The notes beneath the pieces are model-generated. The model saw only the letters and a program-made list of their open reading frames with translations, searched no databases and had not been told where the DNA came from. A DNA stretch of 64,000 nt, from positions 62,001-126,000 of the forward strand of contig NZ_PJJO01000061.1 of the NCBI RefSeq assembly GCF_002929535.1, given 5' to 3'. Within the stretch, counting starts at the first letter, position 1; every line of letters begins with the position of its first letter. Both the position numbers and the translations under genes were made by a program. Below, piece after piece: positions 20,243-31,007 of this stretch. The stretch comes from Cryobacterium sp. Y11 (GTDB lineage Bacteria > Actinomycetota > Actinomycetes > Actinomycetales > Microbacteriaceae).

Positions 20243-21397
20243 GTGGCTGCAATCAACTTGGGGATGCCCAAAGTACCTGAGGTACTCGCTCCCAGACGTA
20301 AATCCCGTCAGATCAAGGTCGGTAAGGTTCTGGTCGGTGGTGATGCTCAGGTGAGCGTGCAATCGATGACGACCACACCGACCACCAACATTAACGCGAC
20401 ACTTCAACAGATCGCCGAGCTCACGGCGAGCGGATGCGACATCGTGCGTGTTGCCGTGCCCACCCGTGATGATGCCGAGGCGCTGCCCATCATCGCCAAG
20501 AAGAGCCAGATTCCGGTCATCGCCGACATCCACTTTCAGCCGAACTATGTCTTTGCTGCGATTGACGCCGGTTGCGCCGCCGTGCGGGTGAACCCCGGAA
20601 ACATTCGCAAGTTCGACGACCAGGTCGGCAAAATCGCCGCCGCAGCGAAGGCCGCCGGCGTGAGCCTGCGCATCGGCGTCAATGCCGGTTCGCTTGAGCC
20701 GAGCATCATGCAGAAATATGGCAAGGCTACCCCCGAAGCGCTCGTTGAGAGTGCTATCTGGGAGGCGAGCCTGTTCGAGGAGCACGACTTTCACGACTTC
20801 AAGATCTCGGTCAAGCACAACGACCCGGTCATCATGGTCAAGGCCTACCGCCTGCTGGCGGAGCGCGGCGACTGGCCGTTGCACCTCGGTGTGACCGAGG
20901 CCGGGCCGAGCTTTCAGGGGACCATCAAGAGCGCAACGGCGTTCGGACTGCTGCTCGGCGAGGGGATCGGTGACACCATTCGGGTGTCGCTGAGTGCCCC
21001 TCCGGTTGAGGAGATCAAGGTGGGCCTGCAGATTCTGCAGTCGCTCAATCTGCGGGAGCGCAAGCTCGAGATTGTCTCCTGCCCGAGTTGCGGCCGGGCC
21101 CAAGTGGATGTCTACAAGCTCGCCAACGATGTCACCGACGGGCTCGAGGGCATGACAGTGCCACTGCGTGTTGCCGTGATGGGTTGCGTCGTGAACGGGC
21201 CGGGTGAGGCCCGCGAGGCCGACCTCGGTGTCGCCAGCGGCAACGGCAAGGGCCAGATCTTCGTGCGCGGTGAGGTCATCAAGACCGTGCCAGAGTCCGA
21301 GATCGTGGCCACTCTGATCGAAGAGGCCAATCGTCTCGCCGCCGAGATGCCCGCAGCCGAGCTTGGCAACCCCACCGTCACCGTCGGCGCGAATTAA
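20243..21397 (+). CDS. ispG: 4-hydroxy-3-methylbut-2-en-1-yl diphosphate synthase
   Basis: 384 residues; MEP pathway enzyme with a 4Fe-4S cluster, converting MEcPP to HMBPP. The N-terminal TIM-barrel has [17 protein letters not shown] near residue 34 and [10 protein letters not shown] near 118. The C-terminal cluster domain has [11 protein letters not shown] near 278 and [10 protein letters not shown] near 314, containing the three cluster cysteines and Glu. The start GTG is leaderless by context. The usual actinobacterial neighbours dxr and rseP lie upstream, separated here by extra genes. Confidence 0.96.
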
Positions 21398-21628
21398 GTT
21401 CTCGACATACCGGGGATGACTAGCTGAAAGGGGTACTCCTAAAATCATCAGCCAGTGTCGCAGACGCTGGCCACGGGTGCACCAACCTTGTAATGTATAG
21501 CCCGGTTTGAGCACGATGGCTCATTTGTCGCCTGGGTGGTTTGACCATATTGGGGGTATGCGCTCACATTACGTGTGTTGGGGTTCAGGCTGCTAGGCCG
21601 ACTGAGTCGATCGTTTCAACGGAAATAA
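21398..21628. other. intergenic region between ispG and the glycan cluster
   Basis: 231 bp, more AT-rich than flanking genes. It holds a weak imperfect hairpin at about 21453-21471 (CCAGTG/CGCTGG) that may terminate ispG. TTGACC at 21541 could be a -35 element, but no convincing -10 or plus-strand gene follows. Nothing else recognised; it marks the left edge of the glycan cluster. Confidence 0.5.
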
Positions 21629-22879
21629 TCAATCCCGACCAGTGCCATGAGGTCGATCTTGACCGGTTCCCGTTGGTCCGACAAAGCTCGCATCGGGACT
21701 TGTCGTCGGCGTGCCCGTTGGCGCGCATAGTTTCGTTCTTGCGGTCGGTTGGTGCGTCGGCCAAACACGGGTTGCGGCGAGGGAGGAGACCTGCGCACTG
21801 AAAGCGCCGGAACCCCGTGGCCGGTAGACCACTTGGGCGTGGAACACAAATCTCGCAAAAAATGCGCAGGCGATCGTCGCGCCTTGGGCGATGAGGTTCG
21901 GGATGAATAAGTGCTCCACCAAGATCACGAGGATTGGCAGTCTGATCAGGGCCTCCGTTCCGTTGAACGCGAACGAGGATCCGAAACGGGTCCAAAACAA
22001 CCGGCTCTCGGTTCGGAGTTCGCGAAAGACGAACCGCTCCTGGAAGAAGAAATTGCCGACGATGGTCGCGGCGGCGGCGGCGGTGGCGGCTGCGGCGTAA
22101 TACATTCCCGCGGCGGTGAGCCCGGCCATGATCGCGAGATTGGCGATCGCTCCGAAGGCTCCGATGATCGCAAAGCGCGACATCCGGCCGAACCGGAGCT
22201 CGGCCAGTTGAGACAGAAAACGCATGCCCTGGGCCAGGTCCGCCTTCGACTGGCCCGCGAAGCGCTGAGCGAAGACGAAGGGCTCCTCAACGATCGTGAT
22301 CTCGTGCCTAGCGAGGATCTCGAGCAGGATCTTGAACCCTCTGGGACGGAGCCGTTCGAGGTCTACTGCAGCGCGGCGAACCGCGAAGAAGCCCGTCATC
22401 GGATCGGTGCAGTGCCGCAGGCGGCGAGGGAACATGGCGCGGGTCAAGGTAGTCGATATGCTCGAAACCGAGCGGCGGGCCCAGCCGCTGAGCCCGGTGT
22501 TATCCCCGCCGCCGCAGTAACGTGAGGCGACGGCAACATCCGCCTGTGACTCCCTGGCCGCTGCGAGCAGGGCAGGAATCATCTCCGGCGGATGCTGCAA
22601 ATCTCCGTCCATGACCAGGCACCACGCGCTCGTGCTCTCGCGTAAGCCCTCGATGACGGCGCCGCTGAGCCCACCGATCGGTTGATCACGGTGGAGGAGC
22701 CGCGTAGGGACGGCGCTCCATTCCGCGGCGGACAGCACGGCGGTCGGGGTATCGTCGGTGGAATCGTCGACGAAAAGGATCTCGGCGTCGTCAGGGTCCA
22801 GAACGACCGCCAACCGCCGCACGAGTTCGGGGATATTTGGGGCTTCATTGAAGGTGGGGATGATGACCGTGAGGAGCAT
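21629..22879 (-). CDS. DPM-like family-2 glycosyltransferase fused to a GtrA membrane domain
   Basis: 416 residues from ATG 22879 (AAGG about 6 nt upstream; start MLLTVIIPTFNEAPN). GT2 domain at about 1-225: FVDDSTDD near 36 and the metal-binding MDGDLQHPPE near 90, as in polyprenyl-phosphate mannose/glucose synthases. GtrA-type domain with four membrane segments at about 235-355 (FAIIGAFGAIANLAIMAGL). Likely makes or flips a polyprenyl-phosphate sugar donor. The final ~55 residues after VVYRPRGSGAF are Thr/Pro-rich and unlike the family, perhaps from loss of the original stop. Last gene of the five-gene cluster. Confidence 0.85.
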   Translation of the reverse strand: MLLTVIIPTFNEAPNIPELVRRLAVVLDPDDAEILFVDDSTDDTPTAVLSAAEWSAVPTRLLHRDQPIGGLSGAVIEGLRESTSAWCLVMDGDLQHPPEMIPALLAAARESQADVAVASRYCGGGDNTGLSGWARRSVSSISTTLTRAMFPRRLRHCTDPMTGFFAVRRAAVDLERLRPRGFKILLEILARHEITIVEEPFVFAQRFAGQSKADLAQGMRFLSQLAELRFGRMSRFAIIGAFGAIANLAIMAGLTAAGMYYAAAATAAAAATIVGNFFFQERFVFRELRTESRLFWTRFGSSFAFNGTEALIRLPILVILVEHLFIPNLIAQGATIACAFFARFVFHAQVVYRPRGSGAFSAQVSSLAATRVWPTHQPTARTKLCAPTGTPTTSPDASFVGPTGTGQDRPHGTGRD

Positions 22880-22926
22880 ATAAACCTTCTTTCGGGCGGA
22901 GGTGGACAACGCTGGGCAATCGAGAA

Positions 22927-24489
22927 TTAGGGTGCGGCTATCGCATCAGCTTGCACGCGACGGATGTTCCAAGGGCCGAAGCTGCGGACGATCGCGGAGT
23001 TCTGCAACGCGGTCGATGCCGTGGTCAGGCCGAGGACTTCCAGGTTCGATTGGACGGTCGGACCCTCGATGATCCACTCGATCTCTTTCCACCCGCTCGG
23101 GTGGTGGACCTTGAAAGCGGGGTCGAGATCGGCCTTTTCAAGAACGATCATCGTCCAGTTGTCATCCCACCCCTCCGAGTCGAGGTCGTGCCACATCGAG
23201 TAAGGGGTGAGGACCACCTCGTCGCGTGGAACGTGTGAGCGCATCCAATCGAGTGTGTCGCGGAAGTCGGAATTCTGATCAGAGCTGAGCAACTCGCGGT
23301 CTTTCGCGACCCAGCCGAGGACCGGTGTCTGGACCAATAGCAGCAAGGTCACCCCAACCAGAACGATGGGCGTCACGAGGGCCTGGTTCGGCAGCCAGTT
23401 TCGAGCGACCCGGAGCGCGGCACGTCTCATCAGGTCTGCGGCCGAGGCGAGGGCAATGCATAAGAAGGGGATTCCCGCGACGATGTACATGCTGGGCAGG
23501 TAGCCCTCTCCGACTATCACCGGCATAAAGAAGCTGCCCACCGCGACCGACACCCACCGAGTGCGTCGGCTTGCGAGGCAGAGTACCGCCGCGATCGCTC
23601 CGCCCACGATCAGGAATCCATCCCCGACTGCCCAGGAGACCAGCAGCTCTGATCGGGCCGAACCAACCTCCCAGACATAGCCGGAGCCTTCGCGTGCGGT
23701 GAATTGGTATAGCAGTCCGTCCTGGAGCGATACGTGCCCGTCACCTGAAACCAGCTCGCCGCGGAGCAGTGCCATGAGCGGGTAAAACGCGAGGACAAGC
23801 GCGCCGACGGTGAGGAATCCCATCACCGAGAACATCCGCCCTTGCCAGGCGCGCCGGTCAATGAGGGCGACCAAGAGCGCCGGTCCCATGACGGCCGCCG
23901 TGACTTTCGACAGCACCGCAATCGCGAAGCTCCCCCCGGCGGCCGCGTGGTTCCACAAGGCCATTCGCGGGGACAGGACGAGATAGAAGGCGAGAAGCAG
24001 CCAGGGCAGTGCGACCGTATCCAGGAATATCTGGCGTCCGAGGCTCAGCGACAGCGGCGAGAAAATGAAAGCGGCGACGCCCAGCAAGGCGAACGTTTTT
24101 GTGACCGTGATCCTCCGAGCGATCAAGTAGATCAGAACCGCGTTCGCCACGAAGTACAGGGCGATGACGTAGCGCATCGTGGCGATATCAATGTCGTCGC
24201 CCAGCCCAAATAACCGGGGGATCCAGATGAGCATGGCTAACTGGATCCACCCGACTGGAGGATGGTCGTACCAATATGTATAGGGGGCTAGGTCGCCATC
24301 GTTCAGGCTCAGCGCCTGGGCCGTGTACGTGCCCTCGTCATCCGCGTACGCGAGACCCGTGAGATTCGTGAAGAACACCGCGCTGGCGACCAGGACGACC
24401 GCGGAAACGGCTGCCGTGTCCGGGCGGGCCAGGCGCCCGATGGACCAGCGGGGTTGCGCCGCGGGTTCCTGCGTCAAAACTGAACTCAT
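22927..24489 (-). CDS. GT39/ArnT-like membrane glycosyltransferase
   Basis: 520 residues, about ten membrane segments. The first outer loop carries ADDEGTYTAQAL (acidic residues at 50-52) and then YWYDHPPVGW, the arrangement of PMT/ArnT-type transferases that use polyprenyl-phosphate sugars. A soluble C-terminal domain follows at about 405-520. It would use the donor made by the neighbouring DPM-like enzyme to glycosylate a protein, lipid or glycan; the acceptor is unknown. ATG 24489 overlaps the stop of the upstream GT2 gene (ATGA). Confidence 0.8.
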   Translation of the reverse strand: MSSVLTQEPAAQPRWSIGRLARPDTAAVSAVVLVASAVFFTNLTGLAYADDEGTYTAQALSLNDGDLAPYTYWYDHPPVGWIQLAMLIWIPRLFGLGDDIDIATMRYVIALYFVANAVLIYLIARRITVTKTFALLGVAAFIFSPLSLSLGRQIFLDTVALPWLLLAFYLVLSPRMALWNHAAAGGSFAIAVLSKVTAAVMGPALLVALIDRRAWQGRMFSVMGFLTVGALVLAFYPLMALLRGELVSGDGHVSLQDGLLYQFTAREGSGYVWEVGSARSELLVSWAVGDGFLIVGGAIAAVLCLASRRTRWVSVAVGSFFMPVIVGEGYLPSMYIVAGIPFLCIALASAADLMRRAALRVARNWLPNQALVTPIVLVGVTLLLLVQTPVLGWVAKDRELLSSDQNSDFRDTLDWMRSHVPRDEVVLTPYSMWHDLDSEGWDDNWTMIVLEKADLDPAFKVHHPSGWKEIEWIIEGPTVQSNLEVLGLTTASTALQNSAIVRSFGPWNIRRVQADAIAAP

Positions 24490-25766
24490 CGTGCTTCCGC
24501 CAATTCAACGTTCGCCATCTTCAGGTGGGCGCCGTTATGGGCTGTCTTGTCCCAGCGGAAATCTCCGGTGTAGAACTTGCCGAGAGCGCGGATCGCCGAG
24601 ATCGCAAGGAGGACCTGATAGGCAGGGGCGCCAAGAAGGAGACGTAGGTAGTCGCGCGGACGAATCCGAAAATTGTGGTCCTTGCCGAATTCGTGCAGCA
24701 TGCAGATCTCGAGCGCGAACAACGCGATCGTCGGGATTAGCGGGAGGAATGTCGCCATGGTGATCGGAAGAGGGAACTTGGCGAAGAGGGCCAGCGTGAT
24801 GGAGATCGGGATCAGCACTCCAGCCAGGGCCATGAAATGCTGTTGGGTCAGCGTCCACCAGGCATTCAATCGCTGAACGCCGGTCGGCATTCGGCGCCAA
24901 TCCCCCTTCGCGTAGACCTGCATGAAGCCAAGGGACCAGCGGGTGCGTTGCCGGATGAGTGAGGCCACGGAGTCGGGAGTTTCCTCCCTGGTTACCAGGT
25001 CGGGCGAGTACGCGACGACAATGCGCCGCCTGAGTACCGACAGGCGGACTCCCAGGTCGCAGTCCTCGGCGAGACAGTCGCCGTCCCAGCCACCCACGGA
25101 GACAAGCAGTTCGCGCTTGACGAAGACCGTATTGCCGCCGAGCGGGATGAAGCCGCTCTTCGCGTGGGCGTGGAGGCGCGAGCGAAACCAAATGAAATAC
25201 TCCAGGCAGTTGCGCAGCGAATACCAGCTGTCGCTGAAGTTGACCAACTGCACGGCACCCTGCACGACGTCGGCGTGCCGATGCTGGAAGACACTGTCGA
25301 TATGGGCGAGCAGGTCCGGAGCAGCAATTGATTCGGCATCGAAGATGCCGACGATGTCGTTGCGGCAAAGCTTCAGCGCCGTATTGAGCTGCCGTGGCTT
25401 GTTCTTGACCGCATTGCTGTCGATGCTCACCCGCACTCTATCCGGGTGCTCCTTCGCCAGGGCCTGCGCGACTGCCACCGTGTCGTCGTCGTCGTCGCCG
25501 ACTGATATGATCACCTCGACCCGGGAATGAGTCTGCTCCAGAAGCCGCCCGAGGGTGGCCCGCATCACCTCTTCCCGCTCGGTTCGACAGGGCATGATGA
25601 GCGAGAAGCTGTGCTCGTTCTCGGGCAAGATGTCGGGGTACCCGGTCCTGCTCCGATGATCAGGGCTCCACCAGGCGTAGGTGGACAGGAACAGTGTCGA
25701 GCAAGCGAGCAGGACCAGGCAGGCGGTGATGATCAGGACGGCGATGTGGGCGGCAGTAATGAGCAC
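24486..25766 (-). CDS. CslA-like processive family-2 glycosyltransferase
   Basis: 426 residues. One N-terminal membrane segment (4-27), a GT2 catalytic domain (about 52-280) and three to four C-terminal membrane segments (about 310-395). Motifs of processive beta-glycan synthases are complete: SVGDDDD (89-94), FDAES (142-146), AED (233-235) and QRTRW (273-277). This is the cellulose/hyaluronan/chitin synthase-like pattern; it lacks the PilZ domain of BcsA. Start GTG 25766 has AGAGG about 7 nt upstream. A GlxA-like oxidase is encoded in the same direction upstream, as paired (in other order) in Streptomyces. The polymer made cannot be told from sequence. Confidence 0.85.
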   Translation of the reverse strand: MLITAAHIAVLIITACLVLLACSTLFLSTYAWWSPDHRSRTGYPDILPENEHSFSLIMPCRTEREEVMRATLGRLLEQTHSRVEVIISVGDDDDDTVAVAQALAKEHPDRVRVSIDSNAVKNKPRQLNTALKLCRNDIVGIFDAESIAAPDLLAHIDSVFQHRHADVVQGAVQLVNFSDSWYSLRNCLEYFIWFRSRLHAHAKSGFIPLGGNTVFVKRELLVSVGGWDGDCLAEDCDLGVRLSVLRRRIVVAYSPDLVTREETPDSVASLIRQRTRWSLGFMQVYAKGDWRRMPTGVQRLNAWWTLTQQHFMALAGVLIPISITLALFAKFPLPITMATFLPLIPTIALFALEICMLHEFGKDHNFRIRPRDYLRLLLGAPAYQVLLAISAIRALGKFYTGDFRWDKTAHNGAHLKMANVELAEAR

Positions 25767-25856
25767 GGTGAACCTCTCTCGGTTGGAACCTGAAAGAACG
25801 AGTTGGGGAGCGGGGGAGCTCTAAAGTAAGTTCAGCCCGAGTTGCCGGCGCCGAGG

Positions 25857-26438
25857 TCAGTCGTGAACTGAGCAGCCGATTCCATCCCGGTCGCCGTCGA
25901 GGCGTTGCGGGTCGGTTTTCTTCTGTCGGATCTCGATGCCCTCGGGGAAATACTGGCGAACCTCTAAGCAGGTCCAGGTGTGGGGCATTGAATGCGGGTT
26001 CAAGCCAGCATCGATCATCTCCTTTACGTGCGCGGCCTGGCTCGGTGGAATCGTTGGCAGGCACTGTCCTGCCGACCCGTATTCACGGAGACAGCCGCCG
26101 AGGGAAGTTGAGAGTTTTTCCAACTCTTTCGCGGGGTCGATAGCGGGGCGCTTCCCCGGCAGCGTCTTCGGATCCCGGGCCTTGGGCTTCCCCCGCGATG
26201 CGCTCTCCGCAAGGGGGGTTTCTTTGTGTTCGCCAAGCCCGGACACCTTCGCGTCCTTCAGCTTGAGTGCAACCGGTTTCTGCGAAGGTTTGATGCCCAA
26301 CTGTTGCGCGGAAACTTGGACCGCGGATGCATCCCACGGTTGGGCGATGACAGCACCCCCAGCGGCCAAGGAGGCTCCGGTCAGCAGTGCAACGCTGACG
26401 ACGATTTTCAGCCGGGAATGACGTTTTGGATTTTTCAT
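25857..26438 (-). CDS. exported protein with C-terminal excalibur-type motif
   Basis: 193 residues from ATG 26438, 1 nt after the oxidase stop (TAACATG). A basic N-terminus and hydrophobic stretch (IVVSVALLTGASLAAGGAVIA) form a signal peptide or anchor. The middle is Lys/Pro-rich and low-complexity. The C-terminus reads TDPQRLDGDRDGIGCSVHD, matching the excalibur extracellular calcium-binding motif DxDxDGxxC. Upstream Cys (C at SLGGCLREYG, GQCLPT, TWTCLEV) may form disulphides. In Gram-positives such motifs mark cell-surface proteins; its place in the operon suggests a role with the oxidised glycan, an inference. Confidence 0.75.
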   Translation of the reverse strand: MKNPKRHSRLKIVVSVALLTGASLAAGGAVIAQPWDASAVQVSAQQLGIKPSQKPVALKLKDAKVSGLGEHKETPLAESASRGKPKARDPKTLPGKRPAIDPAKELEKLSTSLGGCLREYGSAGQCLPTIPPSQAAHVKEMIDAGLNPHSMPHTWTCLEVRQYFPEGIEIRQKKTDPQRLDGDRDGIGCSVHD

Positions 26439-26439
26439 G

Positions 26440-28986
26440 TTATGAGACCCATATCCAATCTGCCGTGCTAGGCACGCCATTGCTGTCCAAGACGGTTAAT
26501 AGGTAAGGGCCTGGGGGTAGAAGGTTGGGGTTGGCGGGTATTTGCACGACCCGCGAACTTCCAGTGCCAGCGATGGGCAAGTCCACCAGACGCGCATTCG
26601 TGTCGGTCTGGTGCGTTGGCGACATGGGTGCCGTCAGACTGGCCGATACCACGTCACCGGTTACCGTAATGGGGAACGAATCGCCGTATTGGGCGGCGGT
26701 GGGCATGCCGGAGGCTGTGGGTCGTTCGCCCTTGTACAGATACGGGGGGCTGTACACCGAGATCTTCAACTCAAAGCTGTTGTCAACGGGATTGGAACCC
26801 AAGACGACGACTCGACCATCGGGCAGCAGGGTGGCGCTCGAATGATAGTTGCGACCAATCGGATCGCCCTCGATGGACTTCCAGAGCCCGGCCTCGGGGT
26901 CATAGATCGCCGCGGTGTTGACGTTGTCCGAACGGTTGTACTTAGCGCCGTCCGCCGCCAGAACGGTGCGATCCGGGAGGGAAACCAGGTTGACGTACAT
27001 CTTGCCAGGGCCGGGCAAATCCGGTCCCGCTTGATACGCCGGAGCGGTCTTGGAAAGTTCGATGATGTCGACCGTGCTGGTTGCGGCATTGTTCGTGTCC
27101 GAGTTACCCCCGCCGACGATCATGACCTTCTGGTCTTGGGCGGGTGGAAGCAGTACGGAACCGGCCTGGTCGCGGAGATCTTTCTGACGTAATCCCGGTA
27201 AATCCCAAATCTGAGCGGTGCGCCAATCATAGAGGGCCGCGCCCGTTCCCGGCAGACCATTTCCGAAGGTGTGGCCACCGGAATAAAACAGCATCCCGTC
27301 GTCCAGTAGATACATGTGCGGGTATGTGCCCCAGAAACTCCAGGTCTGGGGAACTTGGCCTATGGGGAGCCATTTCATTTGGGAGGAGTCGAACATCTCG
27401 GTGAGTACCGTGCCCTCTGCCTTTTCGTCGAGGCCGCCGGCGGACCACACGTCACCGTCACCGAGCTTCGTGAGGGTCGGATACCAGTGCGCACCGGCCA
27501 TGTCGGATAGGCGATGGAACTGGTCATCACTCGGATCGAAGTAGTAGCTTTTGTTCGATCCCTTGAACGTGTTCGGTCCCTGATCCTGCTGGGGATAGGC
27601 CAGGGTACCGCCGGCGATGAGTACCTTGCCGTCGGAGAGGGTCACGTGTCCGGCGCAGAACATGTCATATGGCGCGGGGACTTCGGTGTACACGTTGGTG
27701 TCGGGCGACCACACGACTGCACGGAATGTGCCCGCCGCGAATTGAGCGCCGTCATTCCCGCTCCCAGCGATGAGGAGAAGTCGGCCATCGTGCAGCAGCG
27801 TCGTATGGACGGTGCGCAAGGGCATGTCAACGTCGAGAACCCGCCAGCTCCCCACTGCGGCGGGGCCCGTGGTCGGCGGGTCCGTGCTATCTGGTGGAGG
27901 CACCGTGGCCAGCGAAGTCATGGAGTAGTTCGTGGTGAGAAGCGTGCCGTTCGAAGAAATAGAGAGGCCGAAGGCCACCCGGTCCACTCCGGAAGGAATC
28001 AACGGCAGGGGTGCGCGTGCCGTTGTCCACTCCGTGCTTGCGGGAAATGTGTCGAGCTCCGTCCAGTACGACCAGCCGGCGGTCGTGTGTTTGAAGACCG
28101 TGAGACCGTTCCCCGTCGAGGTCGACTTGTAATCGACCGAGATCTGGTAGCCGACACCTGCGACGACCGACGGGGCGCATCCTGGGGCCTCCGATTGCAG
28201 CAGCTTGGCGTCGCCGGAAATCAGGTTGGAGACGCTAATGCGGTAGGAGCGGGAACCCGTTGGCAACGCCGTTGGACTATCTGCGTCGAATCCTTGGGAA
28301 ACCGCCCTGTCCCCCCATCCGGCCGTGAAGAAACAGTCTGGGGTCGTGGCGCCCTCGGCGAGGGATCCATTGACGATGAGTTCGTTTGTGGGTCGCGGTG
28401 TTTCGCTTACTTGCGTGAGGGAGTAATCGTCAGTGGCTAGAGTCCCGTTGGCCGACAGTGAGATTCCGAAGACGATGCGGTCGGTTCCTGGTGGTATGAC
28501 GGGCGTTGTCGCCGCAGCCTCGACCCACGACGGGCTCGCGGGCACCGCGCCCAAGTCGCCCCAATAGAACCAGCCGTCTGCGGTGTGTCGAAAAACAGTC
28601 AGCGCCCCTTGCGGTGTGGACTTATGCCAAATGCCGAGCCGGTAGGTCTGTCCGGGTGTGACAGCGGGCGCGCACGCGTCCGTCTCTGTCTGGAGCAGTT
28701 TCTGATCTCCGGACACGTAGTTGTTCACGGATACTGAGACCGCGCGGCCGCCCGTTGGGCCTGCGATAAGCGACCAGGAGGCTTCAGTGCCCCAACCCGC
28801 TGGAGAGAAACACGTCGGCCAAGGTTCGCCCTGCTCCAATGACGGATTGGAAACGAGATTTACTGGCTCGGCTGCTGCACGAATGTCGACGGGTGCGGTG
28901 GCAAGGGGGATCAGCCCGAAGGTGAGGACAACGCCTTGCGCGAATATGGTCGCTGTGCGCGCGAGGAAAGTAGCTCTGAATGGCAC
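26440..28986 (-). CDS. GlxA-like secreted radical copper oxidase (galactose/glyoxal oxidase family)
   Basis: 848 residues from GTG 28986 (AGGGAG 8 nt upstream) with a signal peptide (about 1-38). Two homologous ~150-residue beta-rich modules follow (about 41-195 and 200-360), each with SNPSLEQG/VNGSLAEG, GDxKLLQxExxxCAP and LTVFxHTxxGWxYW, likely carbohydrate-binding. A kelch-type catalytic domain (about 375-745) carries the predicted copper/radical ligands: C444 (DMFCAGH) to crosslink Y502 (AHWYPT), Y714-H715 (GRNYHSS) and H792 (SPTHQTD), plus a candidate stacking Trp at W552. A C-terminal galactose-oxidase-like early-set domain (PPYLYKGERP onward) ends the protein. Members oxidise alcohols or aldehydes to make H2O2. 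First gene of the cluster. Confidence 0.9.
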   Translation of the reverse strand: MPFRATFLARTATIFAQGVVLTFGLIPLATAPVDIRAAAEPVNLVSNPSLEQGEPWPTCFSPAGWGTEASWSLIAGPTGGRAVSVSVNNYVSGDQKLLQTETDACAPAVTPGQTYRLGIWHKSTPQGALTVFRHTADGWFYWGDLGAVPASPSWVEAAATTPVIPPGTDRIVFGISLSANGTLATDDYSLTQVSETPRPTNELIVNGSLAEGATTPDCFFTAGWGDRAVSQGFDADSPTALPTGSRSYRISVSNLISGDAKLLQSEAPGCAPSVVAGVGYQISVDYKSTSTGNGLTVFKHTTAGWSYWTELDTFPASTEWTTARAPLPLIPSGVDRVAFGLSISSNGTLLTTNYSMTSLATVPPPDSTDPPTTGPAAVGSWRVLDVDMPLRTVHTTLLHDGRLLLIAGSGNDGAQFAAGTFRAVVWSPDTNVYTEVPAPYDMFCAGHVTLSDGKVLIAGGTLAYPQQDQGPNTFKGSNKSYYFDPSDDQFHRLSDMAGAHWYPTLTKLGDGDVWSAGGLDEKAEGTVLTEMFDSSQMKWLPIGQVPQTWSFWGTYPHMYLLDDGMLFYSGGHTFGNGLPGTGAALYDWRTAQIWDLPGLRQKDLRDQAGSVLLPPAQDQKVMIVGGGNSDTNNAATSTVDIIELSKTAPAYQAGPDLPGPGKMYVNLVSLPDRTVLAADGAKYNRSDNVNTAAIYDPEAGLWKSIEGDPIGRNYHSSATLLPDGRVVVLGSNPVDNSFELKISVYSPPYLYKGERPTASGMPTAAQYGDSFPITVTGDVVSASLTAPMSPTHQTDTNARLVDLPIAGTGSSRVVQIPANPNLLPPGPYLLTVLDSNGVPSTADWIWVS

Positions 28987-29243
28987 GGTTATGCTCCCTG
29001 AGGCCTTTGCGAATCGGCCACTCGGCTGAGTGGCTTAATTTCGGGTTCTCCTTGCCGGACTCTTAAATTGCCAGATCAAAGCTAAATTTTCCTCAACTTG
29101 TGAGGCTCGGGCATGAGCATAGCGAAATACTGTGAATCTGCCTAATCCCTCGGTTTGTCGTTGAATTTGCGGCTCAAAGCGATATTGAACCGCCGTCCGT
29201 GATTCGCCTTGATGCGATATGGGCGCCCGCGTAAGGTAGACGG
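28987..29243. other. divergent intergenic region between the glycan cluster and proS
   Basis: 257 bp, AT-rich from about 29035 to 29160. It contains an inverted repeat GCCACTC/GAGTGGC (29017-29023, 29028-29034, 4-nt loop) in the expected 5' leader of the oxidase gene, which could be an operator or a hairpin. I see no clear -10/-35 pair for the minus-strand operon. The proS promoter is at the right end. Confidence 0.55.
29209..29237 (+). promoter_or_regulatory. promoter of leaderless proS
   Basis: TTGATG (29209-29214) and TAAGGT (29232-29237) are spaced by exactly 17 bp. The -10 box ends 6 nt before GTG 29244, so transcription should start on the first base of the start codon. No Shine-Dalgarno sequence exists. 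Confidence 0.65.
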
Positions 29244-31007
29244 GTGCCTACACGTCTCTCCAACTACTTCCTCCGTACTCTTCGCGAAGATCCCTCCGAC
29301 GCGGAGGTGACCAGCCACCGCCTGCTCGTGCGGGCGGGCTACATCCGTCGCCAGGCTCCGGGTATTTTCGCTTGGCTGCCGCTCGGCCTGCGGGTGAAGG
29401 CCAAAGTGGAGCGCATCATCCGTGAAGAGATGACCGCTGCCGGCGCGCACGAGGTGCACTTTCCGGCGCTGCTGCCGCGCGAGCCCTACGAATTGACCGG
29501 CCGCTGGGACGAATACGGCGAAGGACTGTTTCGCCTGAAGGACCGCAAGGGCTCGGACATGCTGCTGGCACCGACCCACGAAGAGGTCTTTGCACTACTC
29601 GTCAAAGACCTGTACAGCAGCTATAAAGACCTGCCGCTGTCGATTTATCAGATTCAGGACAAGTACCGCGACGAGGCACGCTCGCGCGGCGGACTGCTGC
29701 GCGGCCGTGAATTCACCATGAAGGACGCCTACTCCTTTGACTACACCGACGCCGGCCTCGACGTCAGCTACCAACAGCAGCGCGACGCCTACGAGCGCAT
29801 CTTCAACCGCTTCGGTCTCGACTATGAGATCGTGAAAGCGGATGCCGGCGCAATGGGTGGCTCCAAGAGCGAAGAGTTCTTGCACCCCACCGCTGTCGGT
29901 GAAGACACCTTCGTGCGCAGCGCCAGCGGCTACGCGGCCAACATCGAGGCGTTTCGCACCCTCGTTCCGGCCGACAAAGACTTCACTAATCTGCCTGCCG
30001 CGCAGGTCTTCGACACCCCGAACACCCCGACTATTCAGACACTGGTCGACAAGGCCAACGCCGAGCACCCCCGCCTCGATGGCCGCGAGTGGACAGCGGC
30101 CGACACGCTCAAGAACGTCGTGCTCGCCCTGACGAGCCTGGACGGCACCCGTGAACTCATCGCGATCGGCGTTCCCGGCGACCGCGAGGTCGACCTCAAG
30201 CGCGTCGAGGTCGCCTTCGCCCCCGCCGAGGTGGAGGCCGCCAACGAGGGTGACTTCACCAAGAACCCCGGCCTGGTCAAGGGCTATATCGGGCCGTGGG
30301 GGGCGGCCGGCGCAGTGCTCGGCACGGTGTCGACCACCGGCATCCGTTTTCTGGTCGACCCGCGCGTGGTCGCCGGTACCGAGTGGATCACCGGAGCCAA
30401 CGAAGATAACCGTCACGTGTTCGGCCTCGTCGCCGGCCGTGACTTCGCCATCGACGACGTGGTCGAGGCCTCCGACGTGCGCGCCGGCGACCCGGCTCCC
30501 GACGGCTCGGGCCCTGTCGAACTCATTCGTGGCATGGAAATTGGGCACGTGTTTCAGCTCGGCCGCAAGTACGCCGAGGTGCTCGGTCTGAAGGTTCTCG
30601 ATGAGAACGGCAAGCTGGTCACCGTCACGATGGGCTCATACGGCATCGGCGTGACCCGCATTCTTGCGGTCATCGCCGAACTCAACAACGACGCAAAGGG
30701 TCTGATCTGGCCCGAATCGGTCACCCCGTTCGACGTGCACGTGATCGCCACCGGGCGCGATGAGATCGTCTTCGACACGTCAGAGGCCGTTGTCGCCGCG
30801 ATCGAGGCTACCGGCCGCGAGGTGCTCTATGACGATCGCCGCAAGGTCTCGCCCGGTGTCAAGTTCGGCGACGCGGAGCTCATCGGCGTGCCGTGGATCG
30901 TCATCGTCGGCCGGGGAGCCGCCGACGGCATCGTCGAACTGTGGAACCGCCGCACCGGCGACCGTGAGCAGGTCGACGTCGCCGACGTCGCCAAGCACTT
31001 CGCCTGA
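29244..31007 (+). CDS. proS: prolyl-tRNA synthetase
   Basis: 587 residues, the bacterial-type class II ProRS with the editing insertion between motifs 2 and 3 (about 225-405). Motif 1 includes [19 protein letters not shown], motif 2 [28 protein letters not shown] near 135-160, and motif 3 [14 protein letters not shown] near 462. The C-terminal anticodon-binding domain starts near 490. GTG start; leaderless by promoter position. Followed by a strong terminator. Confidence 0.96.

Follow-up and report, generated by a model that had tools for sequence, protein, structure and literature searches.

Can the pairing of a glycan synthase with an extracytoplasmic radical copper oxidase, as in the cslA-glxA locus of Streptomyces, be built from other proteins and in other bacteria? 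The question is raised by a locus of Cryobacterium sp. Y11, in a 64,000-nucleotide (nt) stretch of its genome (positions 62,001 to 126,000 of contig NZ_PJJO01000061.1; hereafter the window). A preliminary description had presented it as a five-gene locus for the synthesis, decoration and oxidation of a glycan. The gene set proved to be co-conserved and, from the functions that we infer for its members, this patchily distributed cassette probably makes, decorates and then oxidises a surface glycan.

A conserved five-gene cassette

The five open reading frames were confirmed and, as previously claimed, all run in one direction, on the minus strand. They encode a putative radical copper oxidase (OX, 848 amino acids (aa); 26440..28986), a small secreted protein with an excalibur-type C-terminus (EXC, 193 aa; 25857..26438), a membrane glycosyltransferase (GT2, 426 aa; 24486..25766), a GT-C type polyprenyl-phosphate-sugar transferase, assigned at the family level (PMT, 520 aa; 22927..24489), and a fusion of a lipid-linked sugar synthase with a flippase-type domain (DPM-GtrA; 21629..22909). 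The last of these measures 426 aa from a TTG start codon; an in-frame ATG lies 10 codons further in. The two tight junctions reported earlier were found again, with 1 nt between the stop codon of OX and EXC and an overlap of 4 nt between GT2 and PMT, and the remaining spacers are of 90 nt (EXC-GT2) and 17 nt (PMT-DPM-GtrA). This spacing suggests co-transcription of the five genes; a promoter scan of the minus strand found no promoter-like site, with counts not above those of shuffled sequence.

Neighbourhoods were taken from a scan of a one-per-species genome collection that yielded 199 relatives; the 79 best loci among them were retained. The order OX-EXC-GT2-PMT-DPM-GtrA recurs in Arthrobacter, Agromyces and Serinibacter. 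This recurrence across genera means that the arrangement is more than chance; the preliminary description had staked its reading on such co-conservation, and the search bears it out. Among the 17 loci with an oxidase of at least 66% identity, EXC is present in 16, GT2 in 15, PMT in 14, the full DPM-GtrA in 10 and GtrA alone in two. Genes were lost at contig ends in L068, L069 and L070, a 157-aa GtrA-type protein replaces DPM-GtrA in L065 and L076 (confirmed by Pfam in L065), and in L067 nothing but the GtrA end of the query was matched, on the opposite strand and 3 kb off. The Streptomyces apocyni locus (L075; oxidase 49% identical) contains all five components in the changed order GT2-PMT-DPM-OX, its EXC-like domain being fused to OX. 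In the 60 loci with weaker oxidases (L077-L136), neither EXC nor PMT was matched at E ≤ 1e-4 in the DNA examined; weak GT2 matches occur in L123, L132 and L133, and a weak DPM match in L079. Across 12 loci the pairwise distances computed for each of the five proteins are correlated (Mantel test, r 0.79–0.98; L065, L067, L076, L162 and L163 left out by hand as incomplete). Gene calls in the neighbourhoods were crude, with merged frames, and tblastn positions were used instead; L160 and L161 duplicate L072 and L071, respectively. Apparent frameshifts, due to decay or sequencing error, were seen in an oxidase (L076:8783-11427), an EXC (L163:7520-8188) and a GT2 (L165:7536-8782).

The oxidase and its partner EXC

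OX begins with a signal peptide, recognised by eye, followed by two jelly-roll modules, a kelch catalytic domain and a GO-like E-set. It matches the Pfam family GO-like_E_set (2.5e-20, over the cut-off), kelch motifs and the GlxA structure 4unm (2e-79). In the alignment, the catalytic region (aa 372-848; 26443..27873, minus strand) contains C444, W501, Y502, Y714, H715 and H792, which are invariant in all 54 rows: 20 of 20 in its own clade, 10 of 10 in the GlxA clade and 24 of 24 others. The set comprises the cross-linking cysteine (C121 in GlxA) and tyrosine, the axial tyrosine and the two histidines of an AA5-type active site, with W501 preceding the cross-linked tyrosine. By these conserved residues OX is predicted to be a radical copper oxidase of the AA5 type.

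The earlier label “GlxA-like” holds for the active site, whose six compared residues are those of the GlxA clade, and fails at the GlxA equivalog NF052501, where OX scores 407.5 bits against a cut-off of 800 (418.5 for the Cryobacterium cheniae and 398.6 for the S. apocyni oxidase). Two controls, the Streptomyces GlxA of L136 (1046.6 bits) and an Actinoplanes protein (L131, 890.7 bits), passed it. In a tree of 54 oxidases, built by a quick method from 48 hand-picked loci of the 79, five from the genome searches and the window, the OX clade stands apart from the GlxA clade. The Shimodaira–Hasegawa-like approximate likelihood-ratio test (SH-aLRT) gave 99 for the branch on which the OX clade joins the S. 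apocyni and Actinocorallia oxidases; the GlxA side, where one Saccharimonadia sequence is also placed, received 100. The score and the separate, supported clade rule out OX as a GlxA orthologue. A possible clade signature is W552 (27331-27333), a tryptophan in 20 of 20 sequences of the OX clade versus phenylalanine in 10 of 10 of the GlxA clade. Actinocorallia presents tandem arrays of four (L078:7130-16110) and three (L079:4769-11560) module-plus-oxidase genes, with no adjoining EXC, GT2 or PMT match.

The N-terminal 365 residues of OX are predicted by AlphaFold2 to form two jelly-rolls (predicted local distance difference test (pLDDT) score of at least 90 at 255 of 365 residues; predicted template modelling (pTM) score 0.49), that is, two tandem β-sandwich modules at about aa 38-360 (27907..28875, minus strand). 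Pfam gave no match at E ≤ 0.01 over this part. Foldseek ranks a tandem CBM22 from a xylanase (4xup, E 2e-13) as the best match in the PDB, and further matches include sugar-binding as well as non-sugar-binding jelly rolls; since the latter are among them, we use “carbohydrate-binding-like” for the predicted fold, the function being putative. In 15 further genomes of the taxonomic family the query matched through these modules alone, and the modules match many other proteins there (L005-L027), the matched part containing no oxidase domain.

EXC has a long, poorly conserved linker and a C-terminal domain with four near-invariant cysteines in an alignment of 19 sequences. The excalibur motif ascribed to it earlier is visible as an Asp-rich C-terminus, but the match to PF05901 (17.9 bits) lies under the Pfam cut-off of 22. 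AlphaFold2 predicts the domain with a pLDDT of about 90, and a fold search against the PDB gave no match at E ≤ 0.001. A profile of this domain found six loci, in five of 396 genomes of the order, and all of them adjoin an oxidase of the OX clade; in S. apocyni the EXC-like domain lies within the oxidase reading frame itself, at its C-terminus. By this association EXC would be a dedicated partner of OX.

A candidate copper site, H137-x3-M141-x9-M151-x-H153 (25980..26030, minus strand), is present in 19 of 21 EXC sequences, being altered in A. ruber (L074) and lost in the S. apocyni fusion. This His-Met-Met-His motif only suggests a copper metallochaperone, and it is tentatively that we consider a role of EXC in copper loading or maturation of OX, where it would replace Sco and DtpA. 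The preliminary description was right that the five cassette genes include neither a DtpA nor a Sco gene. In the Y11 genome (assembly 99% complete, 61 contigs) no DyP peroxidase was matched at E ≤ 0.001, and the Sco score of 21.2 bits is sub-threshold (cut-off 22.8). Excalibur is, by its name, a calcium-binding domain, and on that basis EXC would be a structural partner and not a copper supplier.

The synthase and an apparent exchange of glycanase for oxidase

GT2 belongs to the Pfam family Glyco_tranf_2_3 (PF13641, 2.8e-42). Its AED motif (E234-D235) and QRTRW motif (Q273-W277) are invariant in 28 sequences, and hydrophobic segments are found at the N-terminus and within 309-392, so that the (T/A)ED and QxxRW motifs of processive synthases are accompanied by such segments. 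The best named model is PgaC (75.7 bits, against a cut-off of 422.3); for some relatives of GT2 a model of XrtP-associated glycosyltransferases does better than PgaC. The description of GT2 as CslA-like had to be dropped. The CslA-type protein of L136, encoded directly upstream of a true GlxA, aligns with it at 32% over 96 residues only (426 versus 609 aa), and the CelA model gives GT2 31.6 bits versus 89.6 for that protein, which together rule out GT2 as a CslA. PMT scores over the cut-offs of the Pfam families PMT_2 (35.2 bits; 26.1) and PMT (25.5; 22.7) and has many hydrophobic segments, in line with its earlier designation as a GT39/ArnT-like transferase at the family level. Both domains of the reported DPM-GtrA fusion were found, Glycos_transf_2 (4e-26) at 14-182 and GtrA_DPMS_TM (1e-15) at 245-361. 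A lipid-sugar synthase, a GtrA protein and a transferase, the parts of a three-component glycosylation set, are thus encoded together and pass their Pfam cut-offs, the GT-C fold of the transferase being assigned by family only.

GT2 proteins of the cassette kind (E ≤ 1e-60) were found in 17 of 396 genomes of the order, at 20 places, five of which are oxidase loci and 15 oxidase-free. PMT adjoins GT2 in 14 of the 15 oxidase-free loci, and 14 of the 15 contain a glycanase: GH8 in 12 of them (five times inside the PMT reading frame) and a GH5 cellulase-family enzyme in two. With the same three glycanase probes, none of 23 oxidase loci (21 distinct) nor the window matched, the span of DNA differing between loci. 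The one oxidase-free locus without a glycanase, L156, ends soon after GT2; its whole draft genome (G258) gave no GH8 match, and the locus may be a genuine exception. L152 and L165, which are among the 15, belong to genomes with an oxidase elsewhere, and L153 and L164 share one genome. In the five loci of one genus (g94; L157, L158, L159, L167 and L168), where the GH8 domain lies in the PMT frame, DPM-GtrA is upstream of GT2, and downstream there are a further GtrA gene and a gene of the flavin amine-oxidase family (Pfam-named in L157 only).

Hydrolase and oxidase seem to be exchanged in one slot beside the GT2-PMT pair. The exchange is not complete per genome, as GH8 is found away from the oxidase locus in four oxidase genomes (G388, identical to G691; G504; G546; G684). 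In the midpoint-rooted GT2 tree, computed without sequences below 380 aa (L069) and without L164 and L165, the GH8-linked types fall outside the oxidase-linked ones, with long branches that make its details unsure. A single clade of oxidase-linked GT2s is rejected by the approximately unbiased (AU) test (p 1.5e-8). Because the GH5-linked pair L149/L150 nests inside the oxidase-linked GT2s and L075 is basal to both, the slot has probably changed more than once. Two modules emerge from these comparisons, GT2-PMT-DPM, presumably for a polymer and its decoration, and OX-EXC.

GH8 and GH5 enzymes commonly cut β-1,4 chains, and because of this a β-1,4 linkage would be our guess for the product. On the strength of its motifs, its architecture and the glycanases tied to its relatives, GT2 is a putative processive synthase of a β-linked chain.

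Distribution, proposed pathway and known relatives

The cassette is patchily distributed. A match to the oxidase region at E ≤ 1e-20 was found in three of 248 other genomes of the family, at 34% identity or less. In the order, 22 of 396 genomes gave an oxidase match, with six loci in five genomes at 55% identity or more. Three of 57 genomes of the genus matched (the window's own, C. cheniae and a partial match of 32%), and the cassette is present in two of the 57. These searches scored the first candidates per genome (three in the family, four for oxidase and GT2 in the order, 14 for the EXC profile), and the absences are soft. In the window the cassette occupies the whole interval between two plus-strand genes that we take to be ispG (20243..21397) and proS (29244..31007), and the same two genes enclose it in C. 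cheniae. All 41 genomes of the genus search, that of Y11 among them, contain proS. Of the 40 others, 20 congeners were drawn, and no match to any cassette gene was found in the 7–11 kb beside their proS; ispG is present at 94–98% identity in 19 of the 20 stretches. The gap between the two genes is 1.1 kb or less in 16 congeners and 2.0, 3.7 and 9.6 kb in three, the last one being without ispG in the stretch. Because the gap is small in most of these congeners and none has a cassette gene beside proS, the cassette looks like a single five-gene insertion. Identities to C. cheniae are 93% for OX and GT2, 89% for PMT, 90% for DPM-GtrA and 82% for EXC, compared with 84% for proS and 95% for ispG, and we give moderate credence to transfer of the cassette. 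The interval itself varies from 51 nt to about 9.6 kb (window 21397-29244; L203, L211, L213) and may be an insertion hotspot.

The following pathway is proposed. GT2 would polymerise a sugar nucleotide into a β-linked chain, most likely β-1,4, and export it through the membrane. One sugar would be loaded onto polyprenyl phosphate by the DPM domain and flipped by GtrA, and PMT would attach it outside as a side branch, a step suggested because three-component systems of this kind are known. Secreted OX, its two carbohydrate-binding-like modules holding the glycan, would then turn a primary alcohol of the chain or branch into an aldehyde, releasing H2O2, and the aldehydes would permit cross-linking of the matrix. 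EXC might mature OX, most likely by supplying or positioning copper, instead of Sco and DtpA. A bolder version, which we regard as doubtful, makes EXC the founding member of a novel family of secreted proteins that load copper into, or mature, the oxidases of one clade, replacing Sco and DtpA, and gives the GT2-PMT machinery an interchangeable slot where the GH8/GH5 hydrolase gives way to a chain-modifying oxidase.

Several observations weigh against the proposed pathway. No curated cut-off is reached by GT2, and HpnI, which ranks second among its models, is no polymer synthase. The DPM part is absent beside PMT in L065, L067 and L076. Kocuria (L066) has OX-EXC, and a search of its whole genome for GT2 at E ≤ 1e-60 found none; the A. 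ruber oxidase locus (L074; oxidase 54% identical) consists of OX-EXC only, with GT2-PMT-GH8 on another contig (L152); OX can exist without the cassette GT2. Shared species history would also yield the correlation of distances, and PMT could glycosylate proteins or a different polymer. As to EXC, the S. apocyni fusion has no excalibur domain in Pfam at E ≤ 0.001. In a set of 18 oxidase-bearing genome records, from 17 distinct genomes, a DyP protein is encoded in 11, C. cheniae included, an argument against EXC as a substitute for DyP in general, and the Sco cut-off is passed in six, strongly in S. apocyni (99.7 bits) and weakly in five (23.3–27.0 bits).

The Kocuria and A. ruber loci are what would be expected if two independent modules merely adjoined, GT2-PMT-DPM producing or decorating a wall polymer and OX-EXC acting on environmental carbohydrates or alcohols as a source of H2O2. 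GT2-PMT pairs without OX in several families and the resemblance of the N-terminal OX modules to those of a plant-polymer enzyme point the same way. This arrangement is unlikely in view of the single gene order kept by most of the 17 close loci, the one interval shared between ispG and proS, and the lack, in oxidase loci, of the glycanase that oxidase-free loci carry. We find it less probable still that PMT and DPM-GtrA glycosylate secreted proteins such as OX or EXC while GT2 makes an unrelated glycan. The Pfam families of PMT do include protein O-mannosyltransferases, by their description, and the linker of EXC is long and poorly conserved, but GT2 and PMT still sit together in 14 of 15 loci that lack OX and EXC, with PMT fused to or near GH8 in 12 and GH5 in two, and a polysaccharide is the substrate to which this points. 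It is very improbable that the cassette is a genuine CslA-GlxA cellulose synthase locus carrying additional genes, even though the six oxidase residues are identical to those of the GlxA clade and a GT2 family enzyme adjoins: both the score and the clade of OX, and the short match of GT2 to the CslA-type protein, are at odds with it. The locus has no BcsA-like GT2 of ~600 aa, and the genome yields only the sub-threshold Sco and no DyP.

Comparison with published systems places the Cryobacterium cassette beside several of them. CslA-GlxA makes cellulose in vitro and requires GlxA for activity, the reaction of the copper oxidase on the glycan being presumed and not demonstrated (PMC11022532), and in S. 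lividans GlxA maturation at low copper needs Sco and DtpA (PMC4736821). The two systems share a GT2 synthase gene beside that of an extracytoplasmic radical copper oxidase, as well as the cross-linking cysteine and five further residues (PMC11022532, PMC4736821, PMC3543389). They differ in that the Cryobacterium oxidase is of another clade with two binding-type modules, its GT2 is not CslA, the gene order is reversed, EXC, PMT and DPM-GtrA are added, and the five genes do not include cslZ, lpmP, sco or dtpA; the locus is distinct from cslA-glxA, as had been claimed. The GtlA-GtcA-GtlB systems (PMC8035078) likewise combine a lipid-sugar synthase, a GtrA flippase and a GT-C transferase, the first two fused in Cryobacterium, but they decorate teichoic acids or wall polysaccharides, whereas in Cryobacterium the set goes with a GT2 of its own and an oxidase. 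The Pss exopolysaccharide of Listeria (PMC11439720), a β-1,4 chain with an α-1,6-galactose branch and a hydrolase, is the kind of polymer proposed here, and by analogy an enzyme of the galactose-oxidase type would be well matched to a branch of this sort. The likeness is one of product only; PssZ has been placed in GH126 (PMC7479077). The poly-GlcNAc synthases PgaC/IcaA are similar in length to GT2 and provide its best model; GT2 stays far under their cut-off, however, and its linked glycanases are GH8 and GH5.

Searches of the open-access literature for the cassette and its parts found no paper describing it. Liman et al. reported actinobacterial orthologues almost only from Streptomyces, with three in Frankia, and the main text does not contain “Arthrobacter”, “Kocuria” or “Micrococc”; “oxidase” is likewise absent from the accessible text of a 2026 paper on a GtrA-dependent cluster of Actinoplanes (PMC13390465). 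The cassette is real and conserved and, within the reach of these searches, has not been described before; it is a variant of the synthase-plus-copper-oxidase theme other than CslA-GlxA. What is most original in it is the EXC partner, together with the apparent exchange of oxidase for glycanase. If the proposed pathway is true, synthesis-coupled glycan oxidation extends from the filamentous streptomycetes to the Micrococcales by way of a simple, portable five-gene set. A second pairing of such an oxidase, this time with another kind of synthase and an enzyme that adds branches, would make the reaction of the oxidase on the glycan testable, and EXC would offer a handle on copper delivery to radical copper oxidases.

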